Shown: piece by piece, positions 13,305 through 32,753 of the stretch
How the letters are laid out: the number at the start of each line of letters is the position of its first letter
Numbering within the stretch: the stretch's first letter is position 1
Assembly (NCBI RefSeq): GCF_001563265.1
Contig: NZ_CP005083.1
Coordinates: forward strand, 2,297,001-2,361,000
Direction: 5' to 3'
Length of the DNA stretch: 64,000 nt
Source: Sphingobium sp. TKS
GTDB taxonomy: Bacteria > Pseudomonadota > Alphaproteobacteria > Sphingomonadales > Sphingomonadaceae
Position numbers and translations under genes: made by a program
The notes under the pieces: model-generated
What the model saw: the letters and a program-made list of their open reading frames with translations, nothing else
Told to the model about the DNA's origin: nothing
Databases searched by the model: none

Positions 13305-14958
13305 CTAGCCCGCCTTATTCACCAAAAGTGTCCTGAAGGGTTGGCGGGAGTGGCGTAAGCCTCTGATCTGAATTAGGAACTGGGTGTCTAAGCCGAACCT
13401 GCCGCAGGGCAGAAAATGCCACGGGCCACACCCGCCATGAACGATGATATCGCAAGCTCATTTGGATTCCCAGCAGTCGGCCGCAAGAAAATCACAGCTG
13501 CGTTCGACGGTGGCCGGCTTACCTCGGATGGCGGTGTTCTACTGCTTGCACAGGCCGAGCGCGCGATGGGGATTTGCCAGCGCCTGGCGGCTTGTATTGC
13601 CGATCCGCGCGATCCAGCGCGGGTGATCCATCGCCTGGATGACATTCTGCGTGCCCGTGTGTTCGCGATTGCGTGCGGCTATGAGGATGCCGATGATCTC
13701 GATGCTCTGCGCGACGATCCAGGCTTCCGCCTGGCGCTCGGCAAGCTGCCGGAATCGGGCGCGGGGCTGGCCAGCCAACCGACGATGAGCCGGTGGGAAA
13801 ATGCACCGACTACGCGCGAACTGGCCAGCATGATGGCCGCGATGATCGACATCTACTGCGCCAGCTATCCCGCCCCTCCGACAGCGGTCACGCTGGATAT
13901 CGACGACACGTGCGACGTCGTGCATGGCTATCAACAGCTCTCGTTCTGGAACGGGCATCATGGGGAGCGCTGCTTCCTACCGATCCATATCTACGACACC
14001 GCGACCGGCAGGCCGGTGGCCATGCTGCTGCGCACAGGCAAGACGCCTTCTGGAAAGGAGGCGGCGGGGCACATCCGACGCCTGGTGCGTCACCTGCGCC
14101 GTAATTGGCCCGATACCCACATCACTATCCGCGGCGACGGGCACTATGGTCGACCCGAGGTCATGGCCTACTGCGATGCGGCCCGCGTCGATTACGTGTT
14201 CGGCCTGCCCACCAATTCAGCGCTGCGCGCCGATCCCGCCATTGTTGCGGTCGCCGATGCCTGCGCGGTCAAGCGCGCCCAGCGTCAGTGTCCCGTCCTG
14301 CGCAACTATGCCGAGACCCGCTATGGGGCAAAGACCTGGAAGTGCCAGCGTCGCGTCGTTGCACGGATCGAGGCCAGCACGCTGGGCATGGACATCCGCT
14401 ATGTCGTCACCTCGTTGGCAACAGGATCGGCCGAGCACATCTACGACACGCTCTACTGCGCGCGTGGTCAGGCCGAGAACCTGATCAAGCGCCACAAGTC
14501 CCAGCTCGCCAGCGACCGAACCTCGTGCCGCTCGGCCAATGCCAATCAGATGCGCCTGATACTGCACACTGCCGCATACTGGCTGCTATGGCGCATCCAG
14601 CAGGCGATGCCCAGGACCGCTGCTCTGGCAAGCGCGGAGTTTACCACCTTGCGCCTGCGGCTGCTCAAGGTCGCTGCGCGCGTCGTAGAAAGTGCTAGCC
14701 GCATCCGCATTGCCTTCGCTTCCGCCTGTCCGGATGCCGACCTGTTCCGCGCCCTCGTTCTCCGGCTGAAGCCTGCGCCGACGTAGCCCATGCGGCAGCG
14801 CCGCAGAACTCCGAGCCCAGCCCTTCAACCCGAAAAGCCCATCAATCCGAATGCGGTGAAACAAACGCCAGCGATGCCGGTCGTCCGCGCAATACAGCCA
14901 GCCGCAGCAAATGCCCAGAGCGGGCCCGAAACCGAGCGTCGTGAATAAGAGAGGCTAG
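13305..14958 (+). mobile_element. IS1380-family insertion sequence
   Basis: A complete transposase gene lies between imperfect inverted ends: 13305-13322 on the left and the reverse complement of 14941-14958 on the right agree at 15 of 18 positions, sharing CTAGCC and CTTATTCAC. CTAG occurs at both outer edges. It may be a 4-bp target duplication, in which case the IS is 13309-14954, or part of the ends. The element appears intact, about 1.65 kb, with one transposase frame and no passenger. It has split an unknown minus-strand gene. Confidence 0.8.
13416..14786 (+). CDS. IS1380-family transposase
   Basis: The 456-residue product opens with the family's typical first segment (AFDGGRLTSDGGVLLLAQAE) and has DDE-type acidic residues in TLDIDDTCDVVHG, ITIRGDGHYGRPEV and, near the C-terminus, ARGQAENLIKRHKSQL, the Y/E region. 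Length is normal for IS1380/IS1247 transposases (about 440-470), with no frameshift, so it is probably active. The start could also be the ATG at 13437 (MNDDIASSFGF). It catalyses cut-and-paste movement of the surrounding IS. Confidence 0.9.
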   Translation: MPRATPAMNDDIASSFGFPAVGRKKITAAFDGGRLTSDGGVLLLAQAERAMGICQRLAACIADPRDPARVIHRLDDILRARVFAIACGYEDADDLDALRDDPGFRLALGKLPESGAGLASQPTMSRWENAPTTRELASMMAAMIDIYCASYPAPPTAVTLDIDDTCDVVHGYQQLSFWNGHHGERCFLPIHIYDTATGRPVAMLLRTGKTPSGKEAAGHIRRLVRHLRRNWPDTHITIRGDGHYGRPEVMAYCDAARVDYVFGLPTNSALRADPAIVAVADACAVKRAQRQCPVLRNYAETRYGAKTWKCQRRVVARIEASTLGMDIRYVVTSLATGSAEHIYDTLYCARGQAENLIKRHKSQLASDRTSCRSANANQMRLILHTAAYWLLWRIQQAMPRTAALASAEFTTLRLRLLKVAARVVESASRIRIAFASACPDADLFRALVLRLKPAPT

Positions 14959-16209: not shown

Positions 16210-17262
16210 ATGGCCAGCAAGGCACAGTCGCGCCGCGTCAGCAGCTTGGCGGACCTCAAGGAACTTTACGCAGAACAGATCGCGACGCCCGAGTTTCAGG
16301 CGTCATTTGGTGATCCGATCCCGCTCTCGATCGTCGAGCCCGGTGAAGAGCCGGGCGAACATGATATGCCGAACCCCTTCGCGGCGCAGGCGGAATGCGG
16401 TGGCATCATCGCCGCCATCTTCGATCTGTTCGCCGGAACACGGCTCGAAGCGCTCGCCCCTGAGATCGCTTGGGGGTTCGTGAACAGCTTCCACTTCGTC
16501 GCGACGAAGCTGGAGCGCCGCGAGGACAGTCTCGCTTCGGAGATCGGCGACATGGTGCGCCGTCCCGACATGAGCGAGGTGTTCAGCAGCCAGCTCGAAG
16601 AAAAGCAGCTCCTGTGCCGATCGACCACCGAGCAACGCGACGCGATCGAATGCATGCGCGACTATGCCGCCGAAATGTATCGTGCGCAGTCCGGCTGGCC
16701 TTGGTCGCCGGCCCGCGGCTCACGCGCATCCTCTGCCTCGACGGCAAGCGTGATCGCGGCCCAGGACTTCCTGCGGGAACGTGCGCTCGCCGAACGCGAG
16801 AAGCATGTCCCGCAAGGGCCGATCGTCGTCTTCTCGGGGCCGGCGCAGTGGCACGACTGGGAGATGCTCTGGCGCAAGCTCGACGAGGTCCATGCGCGCG
16901 TTCCGCACATGACGCTGGTCACGACAGGCCAGCGCAAGGGAGCCGACGCGATCGCCGCTGCATGGGCTGCCCGCGCCGACGCCCGAGTGCCCGTGGTTGC
17001 CTATGGCCTCTACGGGACGGGCAAGAAGACCGCCTTCACACGTAACCGCAAGCTTGCCGAACTGAAACCGGTCGAGGCGGTCCTCTGCGAGGGCTCCGGA
17101 CTTCAGGCCAACCTCTATCAAACACTGCGGAAGGCGGGCGTTCCCATCCATGCTTTCCGCAAGGTTGATCAGGCTCCGGACACGCAGCTGCCCCTGCCAA
17201 GGCCTGCCGCTCGGGGCTTCGGAAGACGTTCGCAGGCCGATCAACTCTCTGCGGCGGCCTAA
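16210..17262 (+). CDS. DUF2493 (SLOG-superfamily) protein, copy 1
   Basis: The 350-residue product has an N-terminal helical region unique to this pair, then the DUF2493 domain at about residues 202-316: VVFSGPAQWHDWEMLW, VTTGQRKGADAIAAAWAARA, FTRNRKLAELKPVEAVL. DUF2493 is a Rossmann-like SLOG relative thought to bind nucleotides or nucleotide-derived ligands. In place of the usual SGGxxGAD loop it has TTGQRKGAD. A paralogue lies at 18882. Start is the ATG shortly after a purine-rich GAAGGAATT site. Confidence 0.72.
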   Translation: MASKAQSRRVSSLADLKELYAEQIATPEFQASFGDPIPLSIVEPGEEPGEHDMPNPFAAQAECGGIIAAIFDLFAGTRLEALAPEIAWGFVNSFHFVATKLERREDSLASEIGDMVRRPDMSEVFSSQLEEKQLLCRSTTEQRDAIECMRDYAAEMYRAQSGWPWSPARGSRASSASTASVIAAQDFLRERALAEREKHVPQGPIVVFSGPAQWHDWEMLWRKLDEVHARVPHMTLVTTGQRKGADAIAAAWAARADARVPVVAYGLYGTGKKTAFTRNRKLAELKPVEAVLCEGSGLQANLYQTLRKAGVPIHAFRKVDQAPDTQLPLPRPAARGFGRRSQADQLSAAA

Positions 17263-17336: not shown

Positions 17337-17633
17337 ATGAGCCGGCACACCCTTCCACCATTGCTCAATGACGGTCCCCATCCACTCGCTGTCGCGATCG
17401 GATGGGATCCCCCATTGGCGACCTTCTTCGCCGTGGTGTCGCGGCCCGGCGGGGACGACGACGAGGACGATATCATCCTTTGGGTCGGCACCGATTATGC
17501 TGAACTGCCGGAAGTCCGGGCAGCCATCGAGGCGGTGCGCCCCTATGCGGCCATACCGGACGATCTGGTTTCCCTGCTGGAGAGCGATCGCCTTAACGAG
17601 GGCGCGCGACCGCGCCCGGTTTGGCTCACCTGA
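17337..17633 (+). CDS. Hypothetical protein, 98 aa
   Basis: ATG 17337 follows CGGAGG closely; a GTG six bases earlier would overlap that site and is less likely. The product begins MSRHTLPPLLNDGPHPLAV and has an acidic centre (SRPGGDDDEDDIILWVGTD). No family is recognised. A hairpin (GAGCCGG/CCGGCTC, about 17291-17315) precedes it and a strong terminator follows, so it is probably a single-gene unit. Confidence 0.55.
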   Translation: MSRHTLPPLLNDGPHPLAVAIGWDPPLATFFAVVSRPGGDDDEDDIILWVGTDYAELPEVRAAIEAVRPYAAIPDDLVSLLESDRLNEGARPRPVWLT

Positions 17634-17662
17634 TACCCGCGATCATCTCGATGCTACTCGAT

Positions 17663-17698
17663 GGGCCGGCCGCGGCTTCGCGCGCCGGCCCTTTTTTT
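17663..17698 (+). terminator. Rho-independent terminator
   Basis: GGGCCGG (17663-17669) pairs with CCGGCCC (17685-17691) and is followed directly by seven T residues. It ends transcription of the 17337 gene and isolates the next repeat-and-gene unit. Confidence 0.85.
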
Positions 17699-17776
17699 GC
17701 TGCGCGCGAAGTGTCGGCAGCCTCGCCTTGGCGAGCGCAGCACGGCCGACACGGACGAAGCGCCCGCGTTACCCGT

Positions 17777-17809
17777 GCGATCCGAGGGGCGTCGAACCCC
17801 CCGAATCGC
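17777..17809 (+). repeat. Small hairpin belonging to the palindrome family (copy next to repeat A)
   Basis: GCGATCCGAGGGG and CCCCCCGAATCGC form an imperfect stem with a 7-base loop. A related hairpin with different bases stands at 18606-18636 before repeat C, and the sequence between each hairpin and its long repeat (CTCTCTCAA..TCTTC..) is also similar. It appears to be a second module of the repeat unit. Confidence 0.55.
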
Positions 17810-17863
17810 AGCCTCTTCCTCTCTCTCAACTCTTCCAAGGATGGCACGGGGTCAGCACCGGCC

Positions 17864-17998
17864 TCAAGGACGGCGGGGCCCCACCATTTTCTTTGGCGGA
17901 TCAGGCGGAGGCGCGCTCCTTCGACCTTGGAGGGCCGCCAAAGAAAATCGTGACCCCCACCGCCGCTTCGCGGTCGCGGACAGGCTCGCGATCCTTGA
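17864..17998 (+). repeat. Long imperfect palindrome, copy A
   Basis: A 135-bp unit bounded by TCAAGGA and TCCTTGA. The inner arms ATTTTCTTTGGCGG and CCGCCAAAGAAAAT pair perfectly; a GC-rich outer stem and a terminal CTCC/GGAG stem complete it. One side has an extra small hairpin region (CGCTTCGCGGTCGCGG), so the palindrome is asymmetric. It lies 62 bp before the DUF4326 gene. There is no T-run, so it is not a classical terminator. Confidence 0.85.
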
Positions 17999-18060
17999 CC
18001 CCTACGCTCAGAGCCCGTGCCGGGGATGAGCCTCATCGATCAGTGTTGAAGGAGGCAAGC

Positions 18061-18360
18061 ATGTGCAGGGTGCTCAACAAGCGCGTGGTCGGATTGCCGC
18101 GTGGCGCGGTCTATATCGGACGCGGCAGCAAATGGGGCAATCCGTTCGTCATCGGACGGGACGGGGATCGCGCGACTGTCATCGCGAAATATGAGCGTTG
18201 GCTGCGCACGCGGCACGATCTATTGCGCGCGCTGGACGAACTGCGCGGCAGGGATCTCGTGTGCTTCTGCGCGCCGCTGGCATGTCATGGCGATGTGCTG
18301 CGACGGCTTGCGAACGCCACGCGCGAAGAGCGTATCGCATGGTGGGGAGCGGCGGCATGA
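18061..18360 (+). CDS. DUF4326 protein
   Basis: The 99-residue product shows the DUF4326 pattern: AVYIGRGSKWGNPFVIGRDG near the N-terminus, then LRGRDLVCFCAPLACHGDVL with the conserved Cys/His (CFC..ACH) that probably bind a metal. Length fits the family (about 90-130). DUF4326 is frequent on phages and plasmids; its biochemical role is not settled. ATG 18061 has a GGAGG site eight bases before it. The gene is bracketed by long palindromes A and B. Confidence 0.82.
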   Translation: MCRVLNKRVVGLPRGAVYIGRGSKWGNPFVIGRDGDRATVIAKYERWLRTRHDLLRALDELRGRDLVCFCAPLACHGDVLRRLANATREERIAWWGAAA

Positions 18361-18441
18361 CCCATGATCGAGAACCTGCCGAGCCTGGCGGCTCTGCAGC
18401 GTTCTCAGTCCCATTTTAGGGCGCTGGAGCGCCGAGGGGCG

Positions 18442-18576
18442 TCAAGGACGGCGGGGCCCCACCATTTTCTTTGGCGGATCAGGCGGAGGCGCGCTCCTTC
18501 GACTTTGGAGGGCCGCCAAAGAAAATCGTGACCCCCACCGCCGCTTCGCGGTCGCGGACAGGCTCGCGATCCTTGA
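18442..18576 (+). repeat. Long imperfect palindrome, copy B
   Basis: 135 bp, almost identical to copy A, with the same TCAAGGA/TCCTTGA ends and inner arms. It stands about 80 bp after the DUF4326 gene and is followed by copy C before the next gene. The near-identity to A suggests recent duplication or gene conversion. Confidence 0.85.
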
Positions 18577-18605
18577 CTCCCAGGTCGCGCCAAGCCGCAC
18601 CCATT

Positions 18606-18636
18606 GCGAATCAGGGGCATCGAGCCCCCGATTCGC
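18606..18636 (+). repeat. Hairpin accompanying copy C
   Basis: GCGAATCAGGGG and CCCCCGATTCGC pair around a 7-base loop with a single mismatch. It is the counterpart of the hairpin at 17777-17809, with base changes on both sides of the stem that keep pairing. Confidence 0.6.
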
Positions 18637-18690
18637 AAGCCTCCTCCTCTCTCTCAAGTCTTCTTAGCGTGGCACGGGACCGCGCCGGCC

Positions 18691-18822
18691 TCAAGGACGG
18701 CGGGGCCCCACCATTTTCTTTGGCGGTTCGAGCGTCAGCGTCTCTTCCCCGACCTTGGCTAACCGCCAAAGAAAATCGTGACCCCCACCGCCGCTTCGCG
18801 GTCGGCTTCGCTCGATCCTTGA
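18691..18822 (+). repeat. Long imperfect palindrome, copy C
   Basis: 132 bp with the same end motifs. The inner arms extend to ATTTTCTTTGGCGGTT and AACCGCCAAAGAAAAT, longer by two pairs than in A and B because both sides changed together. The loop sequence differs completely from A and B. It stands 60 bp before the second DUF2493 gene. Confidence 0.85.
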
Positions 18823-18881
18823 CCCCGTCGCTCGGCGCCCGTGCCGACGGAAGAGCCTCTTTCAATTCAAAGGAGGCTATC

Positions 18882-19868
18882 GTGGCTCAGTTCAAGCGCA
18901 GCATTCGGGACTTCAGGGACATCGCCGCTCTCATCGCCGAGGAGACAGGACAGGCGAACGACAACTTCGCGACAGCCTTCGCTTCCGACCTCGACGGGGT
19001 CCGCTTCGGCCGTGGCGACGAGGAAATGACCACCGACATGCCGGATGCGATGCAGGCCCAGCTCGCCGTCGAGTTGATCATCGCCACGATCTTCGATGTC
19101 CTTCGCGACACACGCCTCGAACGCGCAGCCGAACGCATCGCATGGGGCGTCGTTCACAGCTTCCACCGGGTATCGAACGAATGGTCCGGCATCGCCGACA
19201 AGGCCGTTCGAGAGGTGCAGGACCTGCTCAAGTCCGTCGACGGTTCGGAAATCCACAGCGTCGAACTCGAAGCCGCACGGGACGCTGTGGCGTTCCTCGA
19301 CGAAGCGACCGACGCTCTCGCCTGCATGCGGGACCATGCCGCCGCAACATACCGTGTCGAGGTTGGCCGTCCGTGGTCAGCGCCGAAGGCGACGCTGGTG
19401 TCCTCAAAGCGCACCCACGCCGTCATTCAGGGCACCGATTACCTCGCAGCACGTCGCCAAAGGCGGATAGGGCAGCACCATCCCGAAGGCCCGCTGGTCG
19501 TCTTTTCCGGAGGCAAGCGGTGGAGCAACTATAGGCCGATCTGGAAGGCGCTGGACGAGATGAGGGCGATCCGGCCGAGGATGGTTCTGCTCACCACCGC
19601 GCAGGACGCAGGCGCGGACGCGATCGCCGAAGCGTGGGCCGCGCGGACCAAGACGCCGCTGGTCAAGCTTGGCCTCGATGTTCCGCGCTGGGGGCCGAAG
19701 CGGGCCGGGTTCGTCCGCAACGACCAGATCGCGCGGTTGCAGCCAGCGGACGCAATCGTCGCCGAGGGAACAGGCGTGCAGGCGCAACTGGTCCGGGTGC
19801 TGCGCTCCATAGGCATCGCGCCGACATTGCTTACACTCTACGGCGGTCCGGCGGATTGGGCCTGCTGA
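18882..19868 (+). CDS. DUF2493 (SLOG-superfamily) protein, copy 2
   Basis: GTG 18882 follows AAAGGAGG; the upstream open frame only crosses the palindromes. The 328-residue product is a clear paralogue of the 16210 gene along its length: a helical region (LERAAERIAWGVVHSFHRVS against the first copy's LEALAPEIAWGFVNSFHFVA), ACMRDHAAATYRVEVGRPWS, then the DUF2493 domain (VVFSGGKRWSNYRPIWKALD, TTAQDAGADAIAEAWAAR). The shared N-terminal extension indicates an element-specific subfamily. It probably binds a nucleotide-like ligand. Confidence 0.72.
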   Translation: MAQFKRSIRDFRDIAALIAEETGQANDNFATAFASDLDGVRFGRGDEEMTTDMPDAMQAQLAVELIIATIFDVLRDTRLERAAERIAWGVVHSFHRVSNEWSGIADKAVREVQDLLKSVDGSEIHSVELEAARDAVAFLDEATDALACMRDHAAATYRVEVGRPWSAPKATLVSSKRTHAVIQGTDYLAARRQRRIGQHHPEGPLVVFSGGKRWSNYRPIWKALDEMRAIRPRMVLLTTAQDAGADAIAEAWAARTKTPLVKLGLDVPRWGPKRAGFVRNDQIARLQPADAIVAEGTGVQAQLVRVLRSIGIAPTLLTLYGGPADWAC

Positions 19869-20075
19869 TCCGGCGATGCGCGGGGCCGCTTCGGGATGCT
19901 TCCCGGATCGGTCCCGCTTTCTCTTCTGTCGATCCAGCAATCGTCGCCTTCCGGGGACCAGGCGCGCGCGCACCTGGTCCCGTCAGGCGACGATGCGACA
20001 CCTACGGTGCCGGCCTCCTGTGCGCGGCTCCGCCGTGCTCGTCGCTGGGTCATCCCTTCGGGATGAATCGGGCGC
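19869..20075 (+). other. Hairpin-rich intergenic region
   Basis: Between convergent genes. It contains the large two-tier hairpin at 19940-19994 and further small inverted repeats (ATCCC-TTC-GGGAT near 20053-20063; GGCGC-TCA-GGCGCC near 20069-20082). A weak GC-rich stem after the DUF2493 stop, followed by CTTTCTCTTCT, could terminate that transcript. Confidence 0.5.
19940..19994 (+). repeat. Two-tier perfect hairpin
   Basis: Outer arms ATCGTCGCC (19940-19948) and GGCGACGAT (19986-19994), and inner arms GGGACCAGG and CCTGGTCCC, pair without mismatch, separated by short asymmetric bulges and a GC-alternating loop. It could be a bidirectional terminator between convergent genes, but there is no T-run. 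Confidence 0.65.
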
Positions 20076-20315
20076 TCAGGCGCCCTGCGCCGGCACGGCC
20101 TTGAGCGCCGCAATCGCAGGTGGTCCGCCGACGCGTATCGCCTGCGCCAGAATATCGCGGAACTCGCGTTCCGTCAGTCTTTCGATCTCCAGCTCCGGCA
20201 CCAAACCGGCGTATCGGCCCCGCAAAGCGCGGCGCGCGCTCTCGACTTCGTCGTCGAGCTTCCGCCGACGCGCTTCGAGATCGGCAAGTAGTTCTCGTTC
20301 ACTCTTCTTGGGCAT
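20076..20315 (-). CDS. Small coiled-coil protein, 79 aa (mobilisation-accessory-like)
   Basis: ATG 20315 is chosen for the AAGGA before it; upstream in-frame codons translate non-coding-looking sequence. The product MPKKSERELLADLEARRRKL... is a charged helix in the first half, then LTEREFRDILAQAIRVGG. It resembles small proteins found next to conjugation genes on alphaproteobacterial plasmids (TraC/TraD-like), but the match is by impression only. The orientation is opposite to the transfer operon. Confidence 0.55.
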   Translation of the reverse strand: MPKKSERELLADLEARRRKLDDEVESARRALRGRYAGLVPELEIERLTEREFRDILAQAIRVGGPPAIAALKAVPAQGA

Positions 20316-20635
20316 TTCCACGATCCTTCTCATGGGTCTGCCCGCCAACCCATGACATCGCTCAACGGAGCGTCCGTTGCAACCCAGCGCAGGTGATAGC
20401 CGGCGCTCCGCCGGCGATGAAAAGCTTCTCCCTGAGCGATTCCAGCGCCCGCCACCCCTGACGGACATATCTCCTGCCTCGGCCGCTCGTGCGCAGCTAC
20501 GTTCGGTCCGATCAGCGGTGCTTTGCTGTTAACCCCGAACCCCTGCGGGGCTCGGGGGCAAAGCAGGGCGCTCTCACATCTCGACATCAGACTGAGCCTC
20601 ATCGCCAAAGCATGACGCTGGGTGTCCATCGGCCG
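20316..20635 (+). other. Hairpin-rich intergenic region
   Basis: No gene is supported. It holds a small GCCGGCG/CGCCGGC hairpin near 20400-20416 and the nested hairpin at 20521-20563. It should contain the promoter of the minus-strand gene ending at 20076. A frame at 20489-20740 is the translation of the hairpin and repeat E. Confidence 0.45.
20521..20563 (+). repeat. Nested three-tier hairpin
   Basis: CTTTGC/GCAAAG, CCCCGA/TCGGGG and CCCC/GGGG lie inside one another around a TGC loop, giving a very stable structure. It precedes palindrome E. Its role is unknown: a leader RNA, a terminator without T-run, or a replication or transfer signal are all possible. Confidence 0.6.
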
Positions 20636-20740
20636 TCAAGGATCAGCGGTCCCCCCAATTTTGCCGCCGCTCCGCTACGCTCCGCGACAACAAAATCGGT
20701 TCCCCCGCTGCCCGCTGCGCGGCGGCTGCGCCGTCCCTGA
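20636..20740 (+). repeat. Long imperfect palindrome, divergent copy E
   Basis: Bounded by TCAAGGA and TCCCTGA. The inner stem of copies A-D is replaced by a shorter ATTTTG/CAAAAT pair, and the outer GC-rich part differs, yet the plan (ends, T-rich/A-rich inner arms, GC-rich flank with GCGCGGCGGC) is the same. It lies 75 bp before the 20816 gene. Confidence 0.6.
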
Positions 20741-20815
20741 CTGCCTCAACACCGCGTCCCGATGCTTCCATCCTCATCTGATGGAGATGGGGAGCGCCTG
20801 ACGATGGAGGCTCTC

Positions 20816-21307
20816 ATGGACGATTTCGAGGACAATTTCTCTACCATATTCTCTGCCCCAATCTGCCCGACCTGCGCGACAAGCTTCGACTCGGATCAAT
20901 ATGACGACGTCGATGACTGCGCGCGTTGCTCGAACTGCGGCACGACCTACAAGATACCCGACGATTGCCGGCCGCTTCACCCGGAAGACAACGCCGAACA
21001 TGCCTTCTTGGAGACCGCTCAGTCCGTCGCTCTCGACCAGTTCCGGGCCGACGCCAAGCGGGTCTCCGAGGCAATGATGCGCCAGACCGCCGGCGGAACC
21101 TACGAGATGTATGAGCGCTGGTTCACCGAGGCCCTAGAGCCCTATCTCGACGACCTCGATCCGGCGCTGCGCCACCACGCCATCGCGATCGCCCGCGACC
21201 TCGGTTACATCGACGATCCCGACGTTATTGCGGCAGGATTCGGTCCCGGCCTCTGCTCCATATCCGGCATCGAGGAACACTATTGTCACTGCGGCCGGCA
21301 CGAATGA
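20816..21307 (+). CDS. Zinc-ribbon-like hypothetical protein, 163 aa
   Basis: ATG 20816 lies five bases after GGAGG; ATGs at 20762 and 20804 have no such site. The product has four N-terminal cysteines in CPTCATSF and CARCSNCGTTYKIP, the layout of a zinc ribbon (CxxC...CxxC), followed by a helical region and an acidic/aromatic part, and a C-terminal CHC cluster (EEHYCHCGRHE). Zinc ribbons of this kind often contact nucleic acids or proteins. No named family is recognised. Confidence 0.58.
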   Translation: MDDFEDNFSTIFSAPICPTCATSFDSDQYDDVDDCARCSNCGTTYKIPDDCRPLHPEDNAEHAFLETAQSVALDQFRADAKRVSEAMMRQTAGGTYEMYERWFTEALEPYLDDLDPALRHHAIAIARDLGYIDDPDVIAAGFGPGLCSISGIEEHYCHCGRHE

Positions 21308-21315
21308 CCAACCCC

Positions 21316-21349
21316 GGGATCGGGCCTTGCGCCCGGTCCCTTTTCTTTT
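21316..21349 (+). terminator. Rho-independent terminator
   Basis: GGGATCGGGC (21316-21325) pairs with GCCCGGTCCC (21331-21340), with one G-T pair, and is followed by TTTTCTTTT. It ends transcription of the 20816 gene and so separates it from palindrome D and the next gene. Confidence 0.8.
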
Positions 21350-21488
21350 GTCGCTTGACCTCCCTTCGGCTCGCTCGCGTACCGCGCGGACCGTTCGGTC
21401 CGCACGCCGCTACGCATTGCCGGGGTCTCCCGACCGAGAGGAAAAATCTCTCACAGACTTCCCATCCTGTCGGACGGCCGAGCCCGCC

Positions 21489-21614
21489 TCAAGGACGGCG
21501 GGGCCCCACCATTTTCTTCGGCGGGCCGAGGCCAGCGCTCTCCCTTTGACGTCGTGGGCGCCGAAGAAAATCGTGACCCCCACCGCCGCTTCGCGGTCGC
21601 TTCGCGATCCTTGA
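21489..21614 (+). repeat. Long imperfect palindrome, copy D
   Basis: 126 bp with TCAAGGA/TCCTTGA ends. The inner arms are ATTTTCTTCGGCG and CGCCGAAGAAAAT: relative to copies A-C, a T-to-C change on the left is matched by A-to-G on the right, so pairing is kept. The loop sequence is unrelated to the other copies. It lies 58 bp before the 21673 gene. Confidence 0.85.
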
Positions 21615-21672
21615 CCCGGTCTCGGCCGCCCGACGCCCGCTCCGCTGTCATTCAAGACAGCAGGAGGCCCAC

Positions 21673-21897
21673 ATGCAGATCATCTCGACCATCGCCGCTT
21701 ACGATCATGCCGGGTTCATGGCCGCAATCGCGTGCGCAGAGCGTCGCGCTCTCCATAGCTACTTCGACCAGCACGTGATCGAGGACCCCGAAAACGGCTA
21801 CATCGCCATCGACCAAGGCGACTATGACGCGCTGCCGATGACGATCATCGACCGGGTGGTCCACACAGTCCCCGGCGGCATGTCCGACGAGTTCTGA
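21673..21897 (+). CDS. Small hypothetical protein, 74 aa
   Basis: ATG 21673 lies seven bases after AGGAGG. The product begins MQIISTIAAYDHAGFMAAIA and contains the acidic stretch YIAIDQGDYDALPM. No family is recognised. It is framed by palindrome D and a terminator, so it is a one-gene unit. Confidence 0.58.
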   Translation: MQIISTIAAYDHAGFMAAIACAERRALHSYFDQHVIEDPENGYIAIDQGDYDALPMTIIDRVVHTVPGGMSDEF

Positions 21898-21905
21898 AAT
21901 GACAG

Positions 21906-21934
21906 GGAGGGGCGGTAACGCCTCTCCTTTTTTT
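21906..21934 (+). terminator. Rho-independent terminator
   Basis: GGAGGGGCG (21906-21914) pairs with CGCCTCTCC (21919-21927), with one G-T pair and loop GTAA, and is followed by seven T. It closes the small gene at 21673 and insulates the oriT-like region that follows. Confidence 0.88.
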
Positions 21935-22099
21935 GTTCGAGCACACCAACATGAAGAGGCTGTCGATCACCTTGTGGGGAAGCCCCGCCCGTGCCCGGAC
22001 GAGGCTACGCAGCGACGCTGTCGCTGCGAAGAAGGAACGCACGCCCGGAGGCGTTTGTAATGCACCCCACGCACGGGTGCTGCGGCGATAAACGCCTGC

Positions 22100-22300
22100 G
22101 AATCAATGGTTTGCTTTGGGTGCCACGGGAGCCATCGGCACCATGAATTGGCATCCGTGGCACCCAGGACAGCATTTGACCGCGATGAAGCCCAGCATTT
22201 CCGCCATTTCAATGCGGGTGCCATGGCACACAGTCATTTTTATTGAGAGTCCGGGCGACTTCGGCTATAAGGACGACGCTTCATGACTTCCGGCATCGGG
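22100..22300 (+). other. Putative origin of transfer (oriT)
   Basis: This gene-free stretch before the transfer operon holds a perfect 11-bp inverted repeat, GGGTGCCACGG (22118-22128) and CCGTGGCACCC (22155-22165), with a third GGTGCC-type half site inside (reverse complement at about 22136-22142) and a further palindrome GTGCCATGGCAC (22218-22229). The lower strand contains TATAGCC (complement of 22263-22269) preceded by GTCCT, resembling the nic region of MOBF plasmids such as R388 (TCT/ATAGCC). Position, repeats and the adjacent MOBF relaxase support oriT; the exact nick is inference. Confidence 0.6.
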
Positions 22301-22322: not shown

Positions 22323-22622
22323 ATGTTTCGAGTAAGTGTGCGGGTCGACGCCGACCTGTACCAGCGACTTTCCCGCCGGGCCGCCGGCGCTGATCTCTCC
22401 CTTTCCGACTTCGTTCGATCGGTCCTGACGCAGGCTGCGGACCCCGGCGGGCGGTACATCTATTCCTCGCAGGACGAGATACTCGCCACCTGCATTCAGA
22501 TCCTCTCGATCGTCGCAACCGCCACTGGGCAGCAGTCGCCGAAGGCTCTCGAACAGGCGAAAGCGGGCGCCCGCGATATGCTCCTTCAGCGCGGCCTGCT
22601 CGGTCAGGAGGGCGCCCGGTGA
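22323..22622 (+). CDS. Ribbon-helix-helix relaxosome accessory protein
   Basis: The 99-residue product opens with a ribbon-helix-helix pattern, VSVRVDADLYQRLSRRAAGA then LSLSDFVRSVLTQ, as in MobC/TrwA-like proteins that bind oriT and help the relaxase. The rest is helical. The position fits the R388 order trwA-trwB-trwC: RHH protein, coupling protein, relaxase. Its stop overlaps the next start (22619-22622), and the putative oriT with repeated GGTGCC half sites lies directly upstream, so it may also repress the operon. Confidence 0.7.
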   Translation: MFRVSVRVDADLYQRLSRRAAGADLSLSDFVRSVLTQAADPGGRYIYSSQDEILATCIQILSIVATATGQQSPKALEQAKAGARDMLLQRGLLGQEGAR

Positions 22623-24688
22623 GCATCTTCCGCAACGACACGCTCGGCTCCTGGACACGGGGTGGTCAGGCTATCGTCCACAACGTCCGGATGACCACCC
22701 AGGTCTTCTTCCAGACCATGGTTGCTGGGCTGGTGATCTGGGTCATGGGGATCATCTGGTACGCGCTTGAGAAATCCAGCGACTACGAGCGCTTCGTGCT
22801 GATGAAGCTCGTCGAGGCAAGCTTCAAGGTCGACGCGGCCGCCGGCACCAACGACCCCGTGCTCTTCAAGACGCCGGCCGGAAAACAATATTGGACGTCT
22901 TCCGATTGGCTGATGGCATCGAGCCTCGCCAAGAAGACGCTTCACAGCTTCGAACTCTACCTTATCCATGGTGCCCTAGTCTCCGGGATATTCGCGCTCG
23001 GCGCGCTCGCCTGGGCCTGGTTCTACTTCACGCGAACAGGAAAGGGACTTGGCTCCAATCAGTATCTGCGCGGGGCGCGGTTCGGCACCCTCCGGCAGGT
23101 GAAGCGGGCGCTGCTCTGGCAGAAGAAGGGGGGGCTCACGATCGGGGGCGTCACCGTTCCGGAAGCCTTCGAGCCCGAGCATATTCTCCTGTGCGGGGCT
23201 CCCGGGACGGGCAAGACCAACCTCATCATCAAGATGCTCGACGGGATCCGCAAGGCGGGAAAGCGCGCCATCGTCTACGACACCGCGGGCACATTCGTGG
23301 AAAAATTCTATCGGCCCGAAGTCGACTCGCTCCTCAATCCGCTCGACCAGCGGACGGCGCGCTGGTCGCCGTGGGTCGACGTGCCACGGGACTATCATTA
23401 CGACCAGATCGCGGAGTCGACGATCCCCGATAAAACCGGCGATCCCTTCTGGGCGAAGGCAGCACGCGGGACCCTTGTCGCGGTCATGCGCAAGCTCGCC
23501 AAGCAGAAGCATACATTCGTTTCCGTCCTGCTTGACCGGCTGCTGCGCTCCAAGCTGAGGGATCTCGCAGCCTTCGCGGCGGGTACGGATGCCGCCGCCT
23601 TCATCTCCACCGAGGGGGAGCGCACGTCCGCCGGCATCCAGGCTGAACTCGCGTCGGTGATGCGCAGCTTCGCCTATCTCGATGACACCGAAGATGGCTT
23701 CTCCATCCGCGACTGGGTGGAGACGGGGGCGGCCGGCAGCTGGCTGTTCATCACCGTCAAAGCGGACCAGCTTCCTTCTCTCAGACCCCTGATCACGGTT
23801 TGGCTCGACATCGCGATCTCGGCGATCATGAGCCTCGTTCCTGATCGCGACCGGCGGCTCTATTGCGTGATCGACGAGCTGCCGACACTCCAGAAGCTGC
23901 CGTCCCTGTCCGACTTCCTCGCCCGCGCCCGCAAATATGGCGGGTGCGGCATTTTGGGCTTCCAGTCCTATCCCCAGCTGGAGGCCACATACGGCATCCA
24001 GGATGCCGCAGCGATCACCGGCTATTGCTCGACCTGGGTCGCGCTGCGCGCCAACGACTCCCCCACCGCCAAGCATGTCTCCGAGAATCTCGGCCAGGTC
24101 GAGCAGGTCGAGGCGAACGAAGGCATGTCCTATGGCGTCAACGATATGCGGGACGGTGTGAACCTCTCGCGCATGCAGGTGACCCGGCCGCTGGTGATGC
24201 ACACCGAGGTCACCAATCTCCCCAACCTGTCCGGTTTTCTCCGCTTCGGGCGCAATCTCCCGGTGGTTCGGTTTGCCGACCAATATAACGAGGTCGCCTC
24301 TTTGGCCGAGCCATTCGTCGAGCGCACGACGCCGCCGGTCCGTCTCTCGCAGGCCAGCAAGCTCATAAGGCTGGCCCATGCGGAGGCGCGGATCCGTGAA
24401 CAGATGGAGCGGGAACAAAAACAGGGGAATCCGCCGCCGCAGGACAAGCCAAGGCCGGACCGGAAAGCCGCGCCGCCGTCCGACAAACAGCCGGACCTCT
24501 TCGCGCCGGGCATACCTGTCGATCAGGAAGATCAGGTCGATGCCATCCTCTCCGCTGGCGAGGGTGAGATGCCCGTCCCTGTCAGCGTCGCCTGGGATAT
24601 TCTCGCGGCCCGACAAGGCGATATCAAATCGGATCTGGTTCAGCACGGTCAGGCGAACGGCCCGCGTGAACCGGCGAGGCCGGCATGA
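22619..24688 (+). CDS. traD: Type IV coupling protein, TraD/TrwB family
   Basis: The 689-residue inner-membrane ATPase links the relaxosome to the transfer channel. Two N-terminal membrane segments lie at about 26-49 and 113-137, with a periplasmic loop between. Walker A GAPGTGKT is at 193-200 and Walker B LYCVIDEL at about 414-421, followed by the motif GCGILGFQSYPQLEATYG of VirD4/TrwB proteins. The C-terminal 120 residues are charged and proline-rich, the usual substrate-interaction tail. Length is normal. It overlaps both neighbours by four bases, so RHH protein, coupling protein and relaxase are translated as one unit. It starts with GTG. Confidence 0.9.
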   Translation: MSIFRNDTLGSWTRGGQAIVHNVRMTTQVFFQTMVAGLVIWVMGIIWYALEKSSDYERFVLMKLVEASFKVDAAAGTNDPVLFKTPAGKQYWTSSDWLMASSLAKKTLHSFELYLIHGALVSGIFALGALAWAWFYFTRTGKGLGSNQYLRGARFGTLRQVKRALLWQKKGGLTIGGVTVPEAFEPEHILLCGAPGTGKTNLIIKMLDGIRKAGKRAIVYDTAGTFVEKFYRPEVDSLLNPLDQRTARWSPWVDVPRDYHYDQIAESTIPDKTGDPFWAKAARGTLVAVMRKLAKQKHTFVSVLLDRLLRSKLRDLAAFAAGTDAAAFISTEGERTSAGIQAELASVMRSFAYLDDTEDGFSIRDWVETGAAGSWLFITVKADQLPSLRPLITVWLDIAISAIMSLVPDRDRRLYCVIDELPTLQKLPSLSDFLARARKYGGCGILGFQSYPQLEATYGIQDAAAITGYCSTWVALRANDSPTAKHVSENLGQVEQVEANEGMSYGVNDMRDGVNLSRMQVTRPLVMHTEVTNLPNLSGFLRFGRNLPVVRFADQYNEVASLAEPFVERTTPPVRLSQASKLIRLAHAEARIREQMEREQKQGNPPPQDKPRPDRKAAPPSDKQPDLFAPGIPVDQEDQVDAILSAGEGEMPVPVSVAWDILAARQGDIKSDLVQHGQANGPREPARPA

Positions 24689-27645
24689 TCAATCCCGTCC
24701 GCCTCAAGGGCACGCCCGCCAACATCGCCCGCTATTATACGGTCGGCGACTACTACACCAAGGGAGCCGAAGAGCATTCCGAATGGGACGGCAAAGTTGC
24801 CGCCGAGCTTGGCCTCGAAGGCAAGGTTGATCACAAAATTTTCAAGGAGCTGCTCGCCGGCAAGGTCGGCGATCAGCAGCTAGGGCGGCATCGTCAGAAC
24901 GGTGAGATCGAGCATCACCCGGGATGGGACTTTTCGGTCAACGCTCCCAAGTCGATCTCGATCATGGCGCTGGTGATGGGCGACGAGCGCATCCTCGCCG
25001 CTCATGAGCGCGCCGTCACCGCCGCCCTCGACTATCTGGAAGAACACGCCACGCTCCGCCGGCGCGATGAAGGGGAGATACTGCACGAAACAACCGGCCG
25101 CCTGATCATCGCCCGTTTCACTGAGCACGCATCGCGGGAGCGTGATCCCCATCTCCATACCCACGCCGTGGTCATGAACATGACCAATCGCGAGGATGGA
25201 GCACCGATGGCCAGCCTCGAAACCCGGGCCATGTTCGCCGAGCAGATGGTCGCCGGACAGGTTTACCGCAATGAGCTGGCCCGCGATCTTCTCGAGCAGG
25301 GTCATGAAATAGAATTCGACGCCCGCACGGGACTCTTCGAACTGGCCAACTTCCCGAAGGAGCTCCTTCAGGAATTCTCCCAGCGCGGCGAACAGATCAA
25401 CGATCACGCAAAGGAGCATGGCTTCTCGGGCCAGGCCGAAAGGCAACGGTCCTTCTATGCCACGCGACCCCCCAAGGTGAAAATCGGCCTCGACGATCTG
25501 CATCGGCAATGGACGGATCGATCGCAGCCGCACCGCCCATTTCTGGAATCGGTCGCCACTAAGGCCGAGCAGAAGGAGGAGCGCCCCTCCGAGGCCGATC
25601 CGGTCATGGTCGGAAGAGCCGCCCTATTCGGCATTCGTCAGGCGGAAACCCGGGAAGCCGTCAACAACCGCGGCCGTATCTTGAGGCTCGGCCTTGCCAG
25701 CCATGTCGGCGATGTGCGCCTTTCGGATCTGCTGCCACAGGTCGAGATGCATGAAGAGCGCCGCAAGCTGCTCGCCACGCGCGCGCCTACGGGGGATCAG
25801 ACCCTCACCCGTGGGCGGACGACACGGCGAACCGCCCGCCTCGAACTCGCGCTCACCCAGCACCTGGCTTTGTCATTGAATGATGCCCGGCCGATTGCCT
25901 CATCGGATCGTCTCCTCCTGGCTCTCGAAAGTGCAGGGCTCAAGCCGGCACAGGAACAGGCCCTGGTCGATGTCGCGACATCGCGTGACCGCGTGTCTGG
26001 CATTCACGGCGTCGCCGGTTCAGGCAAATCGACGCTGGTGAGGACGCTCAAAGACGCTGCCGAACCGGGCACGACGCTGTTGGCGCTCGCACCGACATCG
26101 TCGGCAGCAGCCGACCTGGGTCGGAAAGCGAATATCGAGTCGCGGACCGTCGCCAGCCTGCTCGCCGGAGGCGGCCACGGCCTCACGGACCGGCACGTCC
26201 TTGTCGTCGATGAGGCAGGCCAGCTCGGCAACCGGCAGGCTCTTCGCGTTCTCGAGATCAGTCGCGCGACCGGCGCCCGGGTGCTCCTGCTGGGGGACAA
26301 CAAGCAGACGGGCGCCATCGAGCAGGGGAAGGCCTTCTGGCTACTTCAGAAGCTGGGAATGCCTACCGCACAGCTCACCGAAGCAATCCGTCAGGAAACG
26401 AAGGTGATGAAGGCTGCGGTCGCGCAGGCGCGTGCCGGAGACTATGCGGCATCTATCACCAGCCTCGACAAGGTCATGAGCGGCGAGACCGCCGACAAGC
26501 TCGCTAAGGGGCTCGTCGAAGAATGGACGCGGCTCAAGCCGGAGAACCGGGCCAATACCAACATCCTCGTCCTCGACAATGCCACTCGGCTCATCGTCAA
26601 CACCCAGATCCGGGAGACCCTGAAGAGGGAAGGGGTCGTCGCCGCCGAAGACACCCGACTCTCCGTCCTGACCGCGTCCGGCATGACCGACGAGGAAAAG
26701 CGCAATGCCCGCTTCTATTCCGGCGGGCAGGTCGTGACCTTCGGCCGTGATATCGCCGGCGCGGGGATCGCACGCGATACGGAATATCGCGTCATCGGGC
26801 TTGGACGCGATGCCAACGGCCGCCAGATGGTCCGGCTCGTTGACGAAAATGGGCGCACCATCCGCTGGGATCCTCGGCTCGGTTCAGCGCGCCGGGTCAA
26901 TGTGTTCAATCGGGAGGAGCGCGACCTGGGCGAGGGAGATCGCATCCAGTGGCGGCTGGCGAACAAGGACCTGCATCTCAAGAACGCTGAGCGGGGTACC
27001 GTCGAGAAGCTGGATGGAACGATCGCCACAATCCGCTGGGATCGTGACGAGCGCGTACAGAAGGTCGATCTCTCGGTCCATAAGACCTGGGATCATGGCT
27101 ACTCCGAAACGGTCTACTCCGCCCAGTCGAAGACATACGATCGCGTCTACGTGCTGGCGCCCGTCAACTCAGGCCTCGTCAACGGCCAGAATTATTACAC
27201 GGCGATCACGCGGGCTCAGTATGGCGTGAAGCTCTGGACCGAGGACGTGAAGCGGCTCGCGCAGCGGCTGGCCCAGCGTTCCGGAGAAAAGACATCGTCC
27301 CTCGAAGGCCTTGGCCGCCTCGATCGCGACAAGCACAGCCAGTTTTCGGAACGTCATCCGGATCATTTGCGTGAGACGCGCGAGGAGCAGGAGAAGGCCA
27401 GGCAGGAGCGTCGCGACGCCATGCTCGAGCGGCAGCTCGCTCGCCGCGGCCCATCGCACAGCAGCTTGGCCGACCGCCTTGCGGGCGGAGCGAGAAGCAT
27501 CGCCGAGGTGCTGGATCGCTTCCTGCAGTCCGTCCTCGATCGGGGCGGTGCGGCCGATCCGCACGACGCGCGAGAGGCGCATGACGATCGCGCGTCCCCG
27601 GCGCCCAGCCAACAACCTGAACCCTCCCATGGCCCAGAGCGATGA
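24685..27645 (+). CDS. mobF: MOBF-family conjugative relaxase-helicase (TrwC-like)
   Basis: The 986-residue bifunctional protein nicks oriT and unwinds the transferred strand. The relaxase domain (1-300) has the catalytic tyrosines in ARYYTVGDYY (Tyr 17/18 and 23/24) and the metal-binding histidines in HLHTHAVV (from 156). The helicase has Walker A GVAGSGKST (442-450) and VLVVDEAGQLGN, with a late UvrD/RecD-like segment (TVYSAQSKTYDRVYVL, NYYTAITRAQ). The C-terminus is Arg/Glu-rich. Length matches TrwC/TraI-type relaxases of about 970 residues. No frameshift or missing motif, so it should be active. Overlaps the coupling-protein stop by four bases. Confidence 0.92.
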   Translation: MINPVRLKGTPANIARYYTVGDYYTKGAEEHSEWDGKVAAELGLEGKVDHKIFKELLAGKVGDQQLGRHRQNGEIEHHPGWDFSVNAPKSISIMALVMGDERILAAHERAVTAALDYLEEHATLRRRDEGEILHETTGRLIIARFTEHASRERDPHLHTHAVVMNMTNREDGAPMASLETRAMFAEQMVAGQVYRNELARDLLEQGHEIEFDARTGLFELANFPKELLQEFSQRGEQINDHAKEHGFSGQAERQRSFYATRPPKVKIGLDDLHRQWTDRSQPHRPFLESVATKAEQKEERPSEADPVMVGRAALFGIRQAETREAVNNRGRILRLGLASHVGDVRLSDLLPQVEMHEERRKLLATRAPTGDQTLTRGRTTRRTARLELALTQHLALSLNDARPIASSDRLLLALESAGLKPAQEQALVDVATSRDRVSGIHGVAGSGKSTLVRTLKDAAEPGTTLLALAPTSSAAADLGRKANIESRTVASLLAGGGHGLTDRHVLVVDEAGQLGNRQALRVLEISRATGARVLLLGDNKQTGAIEQGKAFWLLQKLGMPTAQLTEAIRQETKVMKAAVAQARAGDYAASITSLDKVMSGETADKLAKGLVEEWTRLKPENRANTNILVLDNATRLIVNTQIRETLKREGVVAAEDTRLSVLTASGMTDEEKRNARFYSGGQVVTFGRDIAGAGIARDTEYRVIGLGRDANGRQMVRLVDENGRTIRWDPRLGSARRVNVFNREERDLGEGDRIQWRLANKDLHLKNAERGTVEKLDGTIATIRWDRDERVQKVDLSVHKTWDHGYSETVYSAQSKTYDRVYVLAPVNSGLVNGQNYYTAITRAQYGVKLWTEDVKRLAQRLAQRSGEKTSSLEGLGRLDRDKHSQFSERHPDHLRETREEQEKARQERRDAMLERQLARRGPSHSSLADRLAGGARSIAEVLDRFLQSVLDRGGAADPHDAREAHDDRASPAPSQQPEPSHGPER

Positions 27646-32424: not shown

Positions 32425-32484
32425 GATTCGAACCTACGGCCATTCGATTAACAGTCGAATGCTCTACCGCTGAGCTATCGGGGA
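32410..32484 (-). tRNA. tRNA-Asn (GTT), copy 1
   Basis: On the minus strand the sequence runs TCCCCGATAGCTCAGCGG ... CTGTTAA ... GGTTCGAATCC ... TCGGGGA-G-CCA. The acceptor stem TCCCCGA/TCGGGGA, D-arm AGCTCAGCGGTAGAGC, anticodon GTT and the T-loop TTCGAAT are all intact, and CCA is encoded. The 3' end abuts the serine recombinase gene, so it is the likely attachment site of the element. Confidence 0.97.
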
Positions 32485-32678: not shown

Positions 32679-32753
32679 TGGCTCCCCGAGTAGGATTCGA
32701 ACCTACGGCCATTCGATTAACAGTCGAATGCTCTACCGCTGAGCTATCGGGGA
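32679..32753 (-). tRNA. tRNA-Asn (GTT), copy 2
   Basis: Identical over all 75 bases to the copy at 32410-32484, with encoded CCA and anticodon GTT. Its 5' flank (CGGGCAGGCCGCGCCTATAG region) is also nearly identical to that of copy 1, whereas the 3' flanks differ, as expected for a tandem tRNA duplication with element insertion at the outer copy. Confidence 0.97.

Follow-up and report, generated by a model that had tools for sequence, protein, structure and literature searches.

A predicted family of folded single-stranded promoters preceding leading genes of alphaproteobacterial conjugative elements

A MOBF conjugative element in the window (the whole 64,000-nucleotide stretch of Sphingobium sp. 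TKS DNA that was analyzed) carries five structured repeats in its leading region, four of them preceding genes, and these repeats very probably represent a family of folded single-stranded-DNA promoters of the sigma70 type, Frpo-like in their working. With the same high confidence, the modeled promoter consists of a repeat and some 40 nt of flank to its left and right, and would form only on the single-stranded transferred (bottom) strand. The computation supports the predicted structure, the folding strand, the geometry of the promoter boxes, and the position and orientation of the repeats. Together with their relatives, they probably constitute a separate, alphaproteobacteria-wide family of single-stranded promoters in which the fold sets the edge of the bubble, carried by plasmids and by integrated elements that span three or more relaxase classes, among them the Ti-type transfer systems of rhizobial plasmids, and expressing entry genes before second-strand synthesis.

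Repeats and leading genes in the window

The folded upper part of copy 1 (17864..17998) comprised an outer stem, two small hairpins and a main stem with an A/T-rich tip, with the bottom strand as the folding one; copy 2 (18442..18576) was 98% identical to it, and copy 2 and the folded upper parts of copies 3 (18691..18822), 4 (20636..20740, of a type that also occurs in Rhizobiales plasmids) and 5 (21489..21614) were likewise assigned to the bottom strand. A search with the core pattern ATTTTCTTYGGCGG, allowing up to two mismatches, yielded nine matches in the window, eight of them inside the repeats (shuffles, 0.97 ± 0.90). The initial annotation had described five structured repeats with matched stem changes, and this observation was confirmed: the paired arm change from TTCTTTGG/CCAAAGAA to TTCTTCGG/CCGAAGAA is real, as are the extra TT/AA and the ATTTTG/CAAAAT arms. 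Its description of the loops as unrelated held in general but not for the near-identical copies 1 and 2, and the functional unit exceeds the limits then given: the flanks pair too, and carry a -10 box. The statement that the repeats are not simple terminators also stood, as the hairpin followed by a T-run that defines an intrinsic terminator was absent on either strand, and no terminator-like site overlapped a repeat. At the gathering score, no Rfam family matched the window or five relatives, the sole weak match being MIR7510 (29-30 bits; cut-off, 93).

A repeat preceded each of four plus-strand genes, as had been noted; by the coordinates, 62, 59, 75 and 58 nt separate the end of the repeat from the start codon. 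These genes encode a DUF4326 protein of 99 aa (18061..18360), a DUF2493 / YAcAr SLOG-family protein with a GTG start (18882..19868), a 163-aa protein with a weak zinc-ribbon match under the Pfam cut-off (20816..21307), and a 74-aa protein with no Pfam family (21673..21897). The exception was copy 2, possibly a duplicated or decayed copy, which is followed by copy 3 without an intervening gene. An F-like nic core, TGCGTGGGGTG, lies on the minus strand at 22063..22073 as a candidate oriT nic site, indicating that the bottom strand is the transferred one and that the repeats are on its leading side. It is followed on the plus strand by genes for a ribbon-helix-helix accessory protein in a TrwA-like position (22323..22622), a TrwB-type coupling protein (22619..24688) and, on the last-transferred side, a TrwC-type (MOBF) relaxase (24685..27645). 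No SSB gene was detected among the 20 window proteins scanned; in relatives, an SSB gene was found in the same block as the repeats, a feature shared with the Frpo / ssi promoters of F and ColIb-P9.

The distance from repeat to start codon was 52-62 nt in 27 of 43 annotated pairs, 63-82 nt in eight, 83-110 nt in seven and 15 nt in one; this count leaves aside copies with no usable annotated start (window copy 2, locus L027, where the start lies inside the element, L032:15152 and the two copies of L191) and the unannotated L021, L031 and L192. Neither a set spacing to the start codon nor one copy per gene is needed by priming alone, and a role of the repeats as single-strand initiation sites, priming synthesis of the complementary strand with gene expression incidental, is unlikely. 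Such a role would agree with the transferred strand being the folding one, and the F Frpo is itself called both promoter and primer site in the title of Masai & Arai 1997 (cited in PMC11541004 and PMC9849209); a dual use of the repeats, as promoters and for priming, may also apply.

Covariation and strand specificity of the fold

The earlier claim of selection on structure was borne out by a covariation score of 0.304 over 27 distinct rows, compared with 0.115 ± 0.010 when shuffled (0/500) and at most 0.088 when slid, bearing in mind that the copies share ancestry and that such statistics overstate independence. When folded as bottom-strand DNA, copies 1 to 5 gave z-scores of -5.7, -5.8, -6.6, -1.8 and -4.1, respectively. 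Predicted stability was higher on the bottom strand in 81 of 84 distinct copies (two opposite and one tie), the share among 400 control windows being 54%, and all the held-out copies (n = 18/18) folded better on that strand. Inner-stem wobbles, read on the bottom strand, were G·T in 38 cases and A·C in one (40 of 41 distinct copies, the row left out being L036:11629), and in a wider set 60 and six, respectively (72 copies used and 12 skipped, of 84). RNAalifold on the aligned columns, with the T-strand structure of A1, gave 29 G·T and no A·C; on the other strand the program returned merely a four-pair structure, so that the symmetric wobble test was preferred.

This asymmetry bears on the proposal in the initial annotation that the repeats could be leader RNAs, or attenuators, within the mRNA of each gene, since bottom-strand G·T wobbles would become A·C mismatches in a fold of the mRNA. 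The placement before genes and the compensatory changes would suit a leader, and most of 28 chosen repeat-gene pairs (the longer-spaced ones left out) had a hairpin in the interval from the repeat to the start codon, at the ribosome-binding site or adjoining it. Folded as mRNA-strand RNA, four of the five copies also surpassed their shuffles (z from -2.7 to -6.6), which is expected of an inverted repeat, and the 20636 copy did not (z = 0.32). The wobble counts and the folding both favor the opposite strand, and the inferred start site would exclude the repeat from the mRNA; a leader was rejected on the strand asymmetry and is extremely improbable. The other option in that annotation, folded single-strand sites, fits the data, and the evidence extends it to single-strand promoters with a -35 box and a pre-opened -10, so that the original interpretation was supported in part.

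Strand-specific folding is also a property of integron attC sites, a family of structured repeats with variable loops in which one strand folds. By analogy, the repeats could be mobile palindromes or sites of recombination, with the leading genes reshuffled as cassettes through a folded bottom strand, and the near-identical copies 1 and 2 do flank one gene. An attC site ends a cassette, whereas the repeats precede genes and carry promoter boxes, and their orientation to the relaxase side and their spacing to the start codon are constant across orders; a recombination role has, in our judgment, only a minimal probability.

Promoter boxes and the edge of the fold

For the preferred reading, a folded promoter, the closing arm of the repeat, TCCTTGA, provides the predicted -35 box, and a NANNNT -10 box lies about 17-21 nt beyond that arm (16 to 23 nt from TTGA). 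In copy 1, the -35 TTGAGG (17862..17867, minus strand, as all the boxes that follow) is inside the closing arm and the -10 is CATCCT (17838..17843), followed by TGGA, with a spacer of 18. The remaining pairs are TTGACG (18440..18445) with a candidate -10, TAAAAT (18413..18418), at a spacer of 21, outside the usual range, in copy 2; TTGAGG (18689..18694) and CACGCT (18666..18671), spacer 17, in copy 3; TTGACG (20634..20639) and CATGCT (20609..20614), spacer 19, in copy 4; and TTGAGG (21487..21492) and CAGGAT (21464..21469), the latter followed by GGGA, spacer 17, in copy 5.

A NANNNT starting 13-23 nt after TTGA was present in 75 of 77 distinct flanks (six of 83 having been dropped as duplicates or because a sequence end truncated them), compared with 25.8 ± 4.4 in shuffled flanks (maximum 38), and 40 of the flanks matched at least four of the six -10 consensus bases (shuffled, 4.6 ± 2.1). 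In the identical window of the opposite flank the numbers were 18 and zero. As this search window was chosen after inspecting the flanks, the clean test is the held-out set, in which all the flanks carried the box (n = 18/18; shuffled, 5.4 ± 2.0); these were what remained of 24 flanks after six already seen were dropped, and four of the 18 shared roughly 90% identity or more with earlier flanks. After thinning below 70% identity, the box was still found in 42 of 43 flanks (14.0 ± 3.0). Many of the -10 boxes were weak (CATGCT, CACACT, CACCCT). An alternative -10 at the conserved tip AAAAT, where NAWWWT occurred in all the copies (n = 83/83), was dropped because minimal copies leave no space for a -35 above it and because the flanks showed full boxes; the A/T tip may cap the structure or be UP-like.

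Folding predictions placed the -35 and the spacer in paired DNA, with opening from base 2 of the -10 hexamer, where the unpaired probability rose from 0.22 to 0.81. The mean unpaired probabilities were 0.08 for the -35 arm, 0.24 for the spacer and 0.59 for the -10, which was more open than the spacer in 70 of 75 cases; for 150 of 249 unrelated TTGA-NANNNT pairs, used as control, they were 0.49, 0.38 and 0.48, with the -10 more open in 100/150. Flanks paired better with their own partner (-19.7 kcal/mol) than with swapped ones (-14.0 kcal/mol), although only 25 of 50 flank pairs fell below the 5th percentile of the swapped ones.

Flank pairing and its stop at the -10 would be left unexplained if the bottom strand carried a conventional duplex promoter and the palindrome were secondary, as would the spacing to a plus-strand start codon and the leading-region position. 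The boxes are indeed read on the bottom strand, and in duplex DNA would point away from the gene and give an antisense RNA, but a simple scan of 17600-22000 returned no sigma70-like site at its threshold; such a promoter is very unlikely. In the single-stranded promoter model, the transferred strand would fold back, with the A/T-rich tip and the two small hairpins capping the stem, and the closing arm would serve as the -35, followed by the paired spacer; pairing would end at the -10 box, so that the transcription bubble would be pre-opened. We infer that, in the recipient, the RNA polymerase of the host would bind to this hairpin, leave it at its base and transcribe the single strand, the downstream leading gene thus being copied from the incoming strand ahead of second-strand synthesis.

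Distribution in the genome and among Alphaproteobacteria

In the genome of the strain, 12 of 14 copies were located 3.1-7.3 kb to the leading side of five of the six TrwC genes, with the relaxase gene on the other strand in every case; the TrwC locus L063 had no copy. The other two were on contig C7, which had no match to TrwC or MobA/MobL, the relaxase families searched for in this genome, and near relatives of these two are carried by a MOBP plasmid. Two second MobF loci that had been predicted were also located. F-like and Ti/RSF1010-like nic motifs marked the bottom strand as transferred in 13 of 16 sphingomonad loci and two of six Rhizobiales loci; they were absent from L034 despite its traA, and matches out of place also occur (e.g. 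L022 + 1128 and L030 + 1125). A MobF relaxase was annotated in 11 of 15 sphingomonad stretches, its side being consistent in all 11, and the relaxase side also supported leading-region placement at L034-L037, L191, L194, L195 and L196.

The relaxases near the copies were MOBF, MOBQ or MOBP, and the organisms among the matches listed were all alphaproteobacterial (Sphingomonadales, Rhizobiales, Acetobacteraceae, Azospirillum and Eilatimonas). A survey of the class detected copies in 10 of 385 genomes, the own genome included, a sparseness to be expected of mobile elements; the whole-record search left out the records behind L030 and L031. The family provides a searchable model, and its repeats flag the entry genes on plasmids from rhizobia, sphingomonads and acetic acid bacteria, which makes these genes (DUF2493, DUF736, DUF4326 and many unnamed small proteins) candidate anti-defence genes and makes early expression in Alphaproteobacteria directly testable.

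Comparison with known single-stranded sites

RNA polymerase uses single-stranded DNA hairpins to make primers at the M13 complementary-strand origin and at the sso of rolling-circle plasmids; the repeats share the hairpin, but precede leading genes at a set distance. In the literature found, the single-stranded promoters described so far are those of F and ColIb-P9 (Frpo and ssi; the 2023 Nat Commun live-cell study, PMC9849209, and Samuel et al. 2024, PMC11541004) and sites found through similarity to Frpo or a box consensus. As far as these accounts describe that functional class, the repeats resemble it in their leading-region position, with genes read toward oriT from the transferred strand (by nic polarity and relaxase side), in folding specific to that strand (by predicted folding and wobble counts), and in a stem that reconstitutes both promoter boxes, -35 and -10 (judged from the sequence and the modeled fold). 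An A/T-rich part upstream of the -35 also recalls the UP element described for Frpo. No report of such sites in Alphaproteobacteria was found in the open-access PMC literature, where one match for Frpo in rhizobia proved to be a primer name.

The likeness did not extend to sequence, with the F sites as the only comparison: blastn of 77 copies against two F Frpo stretches gave no match at E 1 or better, and model R1 had none at E 10 in the F leading region (L038). The core measures some 80-150 nt and bears two small side hairpins, whereas the F sites have a predicted hairpin of roughly 300 nt, and, unlike Frpo, the repeats are alphaproteobacterial and accompany relaxases of three classes. The existence of a family unrelated in sequence, in a different bacterial class and with the edge of the bubble encoded in the fold, suggests that this solution arose more than once. 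The box scan found no qualifying -35/-10 pair in the F Frpo stretches, so F does not serve as a positive control for the box test; in the best windows of F Frpo, the transferred strand folded slightly better.

Covariation and position of the repeats in the window

The five palindromes described by the initial annotation were located at 17864-17998, 18442-18576, 18691-18822, 20636-20740 and 21489-21614, with the matched changes on both stem arms that it had reported. The covariation check was run on a MAFFT alignment of 29 copies (27 distinct rows) and gave a score of 0.304, compared with 0.115±0.010 for shuffled controls (0/500 reached 0.304) and a maximum of 0.088 when the partners were slid; the covariation among the repeat copies is real. 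That the repeats precede genes held for four copies, whose coordinates place them 62, 59, 75 and 58 nt before the start codons of the genes at 18061, 18882, 20816 and 21673, respectively, while the copy at 18442 stands before another repeat. Of 43 repeat-gene pairs taken from annotation tables, 27 had a gap of 52-62 nt between repeat end and start codon, 8 a gap of 63-82 nt, 7 a gap of 83-110 nt and a single pair a gap of 15 nt.

A second small hairpin at or beside the ribosome-binding site, sometimes hiding it, lies between repeat and start codon in most of the 28 copies inspected (e.g. 21644-21661), and it could cap the 5' end of the mRNA or control translation. The leading block of the window also holds two related DUF2493/SLOG genes (16210-17262 and 18882-19868), only the second directly preceded by a repeat, and a separate palindrome outside this family, CTTTGCTGTTAACCCCGAACCCC...CGGGGGCAAAGCAG, between leading-region genes (20520-20567).

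The structure is predicted to form on the bottom strand

The core, as seen in minimal copies of about 82 nt, comprises the TCAAGGA/TCCTTGA closing stem, a pair of small 5'-side hairpins, a lower stem, an internal loop rich in purines and a tip stem rich in A/T. Beyond the closing stem, the flanks tend to pair as well (-19.7 kcal/mol with their own partners vs -14.0 with swapped ones), falling under the 5th percentile of swaps in 25/50 cases, and the bottom (minus) strand paired better in 41/50.

Since any Watson-Crick pair can become either G·T or A·C by a single transition, a strand-neutral stem is expected to show both. Counted without alignment, going inward from the ATTTT/AAAAT anchor, bottom-strand wobbles comprised 38 G·T vs one A·C (40 of 41 distinct copies), and 60 vs six in a wider copy set. 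With DNA parameters the bottom strand folded more stably in 81/84 distinct copies; it was favoured in 54% of 400 random windows drawn from ten of the loci. The initial annotation had offered leader RNAs as one reading; both results argue strongly against selection for a leader structure in the mRNA. A transcript with the bottom-strand sequence would fold equally well, and nothing else pointed to such an RNA.

A putative -35 box in the closing stem and a -10 box predicted to be open

Read on the bottom strand, the closing arm is TCC-TTGA, extended to TTGACG in 35/77 and TTGAGG in 25/77 distinct flanks. A NANNNT hexamer followed 16-23 nt after TTGA in 75/77 (most commonly at 19, 21, 17 or 20 nt), as against 25.8±4.4 in shuffled flanks, 18 in the opposite flank and 29 in a shifted window; in the other two (L022:8235 and L109:6651) it was absent at that distance. 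The -10 hexamers include TACAAT, TACGAT, TAAAAT, CACAAT, CAGAAT and CATAAT, along with the weaker CATGCT and CACACT, and GGGA was the most frequent tetramer after them (15/75). Both boxes are present in each of the five repeats of the window; in copy 2, the one without a gene, the spacer is over-long at 21. Because the distance window had been chosen after viewing the flanks, flanks from loci not scanned earlier were held out: NANNNT was present in 18/18 (5.4±2.0 expected), four of them having roughly 90% or higher identity to flanks used before, and at least 4/6 consensus bases in 8 (0.9±0.9).

In the predicted ensemble, the unpaired probability rose from 0.08 in the TCCTTGA arm to 0.24 in the spacer and 0.59 in the -10, with a sharp step within the hexamer from 0.22 at the first base to 0.81 at the second. 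Promoter opening begins at the -11 A, which we take to be this second base. Unrelated TTGA-NANNNT pairs (150 drawn from 249) gave 0.49, 0.38 and 0.48, and the -10 was more open than the spacer in 100/150 of them vs 70/75 copies. Held-out copies gave 0.04, 0.23 and 0.58, with 0.80 at position 2 and a more open -10 in 15/18.

Conjugative surroundings and the transferred strand

Downstream of the window repeats are a ribbon-helix-helix gene, a TrwB-type coupling protein and a TrwC-type (MOBF) relaxase; the conjugative element appears to be integrated, since the contig measures 4.25 Mb. A DDE transposase (PF13701) lies upstream on the leading side (13416-14786), and beyond the relaxase are a large serine recombinase (29242-30744) and two minus-strand tRNA-Asn(gtt) genes (32410-32484 and 32679-32753), 194 nt apart.

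MobF was annotated in 11 of the 15 fetched sphingomonad plasmid stretches, and in all 11 the genes after the copies read toward it; of the remaining four, L021 and L031 lack annotation and L020 and L027 have other genes at that place. SSB was annotated in 7 of the 13 annotated stretches. pLB1 (PLSDB type MOBP) has mobC-virD2, with SSB in the repeat block. Extra repeat hits in pSWIT01 (typed two MOBF) and pHR1a predicted a further MobF on one side, which was present in both, about 13 kb distant in pHR1a. In pSA3 and pSA2 an IS110-family element (L029 13595-15108 and L030 13595-15120) sits inside the palindrome at an identical point, splitting the copy after TCAAGGACGGCGGGGCCCCA.

In the genome of the window, 12/14 model hits lay 3.1-7.3 kb to the leading side of 5/6 TrwC genes, on the strand opposite the relaxase gene; the exceptions were two copies on contig C7 and the sixth TrwC locus (C1:3822000-3838000), where no repeat was detected and whose leading genes are DUF736 and DUF2493. 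In four Rhizobiales stretches (L034, L035, L036 and L194) the repeat block is on the traCDG side of a Ti-type traA; no relaxase was seen within L032 and L033. A barely above-threshold match to the sRNA Atu_Ti1 (RF02506) was noted at 22977-23068 of L035, within traB on the opposite strand.

In the F leading region, TTTTTGCGTGGGGTGTGGTGC, presumably the nic region, is on the minus strand, with the leading genes at lower coordinates. Its core TGCGTNNGGTG was found on the minus strand after the leading genes in 13/16 sphingomonad loci searched, including the window (22073, by motif search), where the adjoining inverted repeat TGGGTGCCACGG...CCGTGGCACCCA (22117-22166) possibly belongs to oriT. The RSF1010/Ti-type motif TGCGCCCTTGG, whose polarity we assume in assigning the strand, lies between traC and traA on the minus strand in L035 and L036; motif search did not find it in L034. 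The positions and strands of these motifs point to the bottom strand as the transferred one, which would put the repeats on the side entering first.

Comparison with Frpo

The repeat family probably works like Frpo, the single-stranded promoter of the F plasmid: it shares every feature of that class that could be tested, apart from similarity in sequence, which was absent between the copies and the F sites. From polymerase binding onward we infer the steps: RNA polymerase would dock on the hairpin, in which the -35 and spacer are double-stranded and the bubble is already open, exit the stem at its base and proceed into the 5' part of the transferred strand, which would serve as template for the leading gene. 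For copies of the 52-62-nt class, we estimate from the geometry a start about 20-35 nt upstream of the ATG, near the small hairpin by the ribosome-binding site, and the repeat hairpin would disappear once the second strand is made. PMC9849209 describes expression in F as transient and dependent on Frpo1 and Frpo2. Samuel et al. 2024 (PMC11541004) identified Frpo-like sites through similarity and a box consensus, and a word search of its main text returned no Alphaproteobacteria, Rhizobium or Sphingo-. No report of this family was found in the open-access literature searched.

Distribution of the repeat family

At least 119 genome stretches shared a 15-mer with the repeats, and the model confirmed 28/80 and 11/39, none titled as another phylum. 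The 39 confirmed stretches have alphaproteobacterial titles, except L154, titled just Proteobacteria; six of their genera were checked as such, and the others are presumed so. Model R2 hit 10/385 genomes of the class and 11/299 of a phylum sample (share outside the class not shown), all 11 within the class, the genome of the window being in both counts. Among plasmids, with organism tallies covering the ten commonest names and the range thus seen in part, the repeat occurred in 32 records, from sphingomonad genera only, and minimal types in 86 and 82 (25 of each listed). Repeats like the copy at 20636 occurred in 184 records (60 listed individually), including Rhizobium (103), Sphingobium (23) and Agrobacterium (11).
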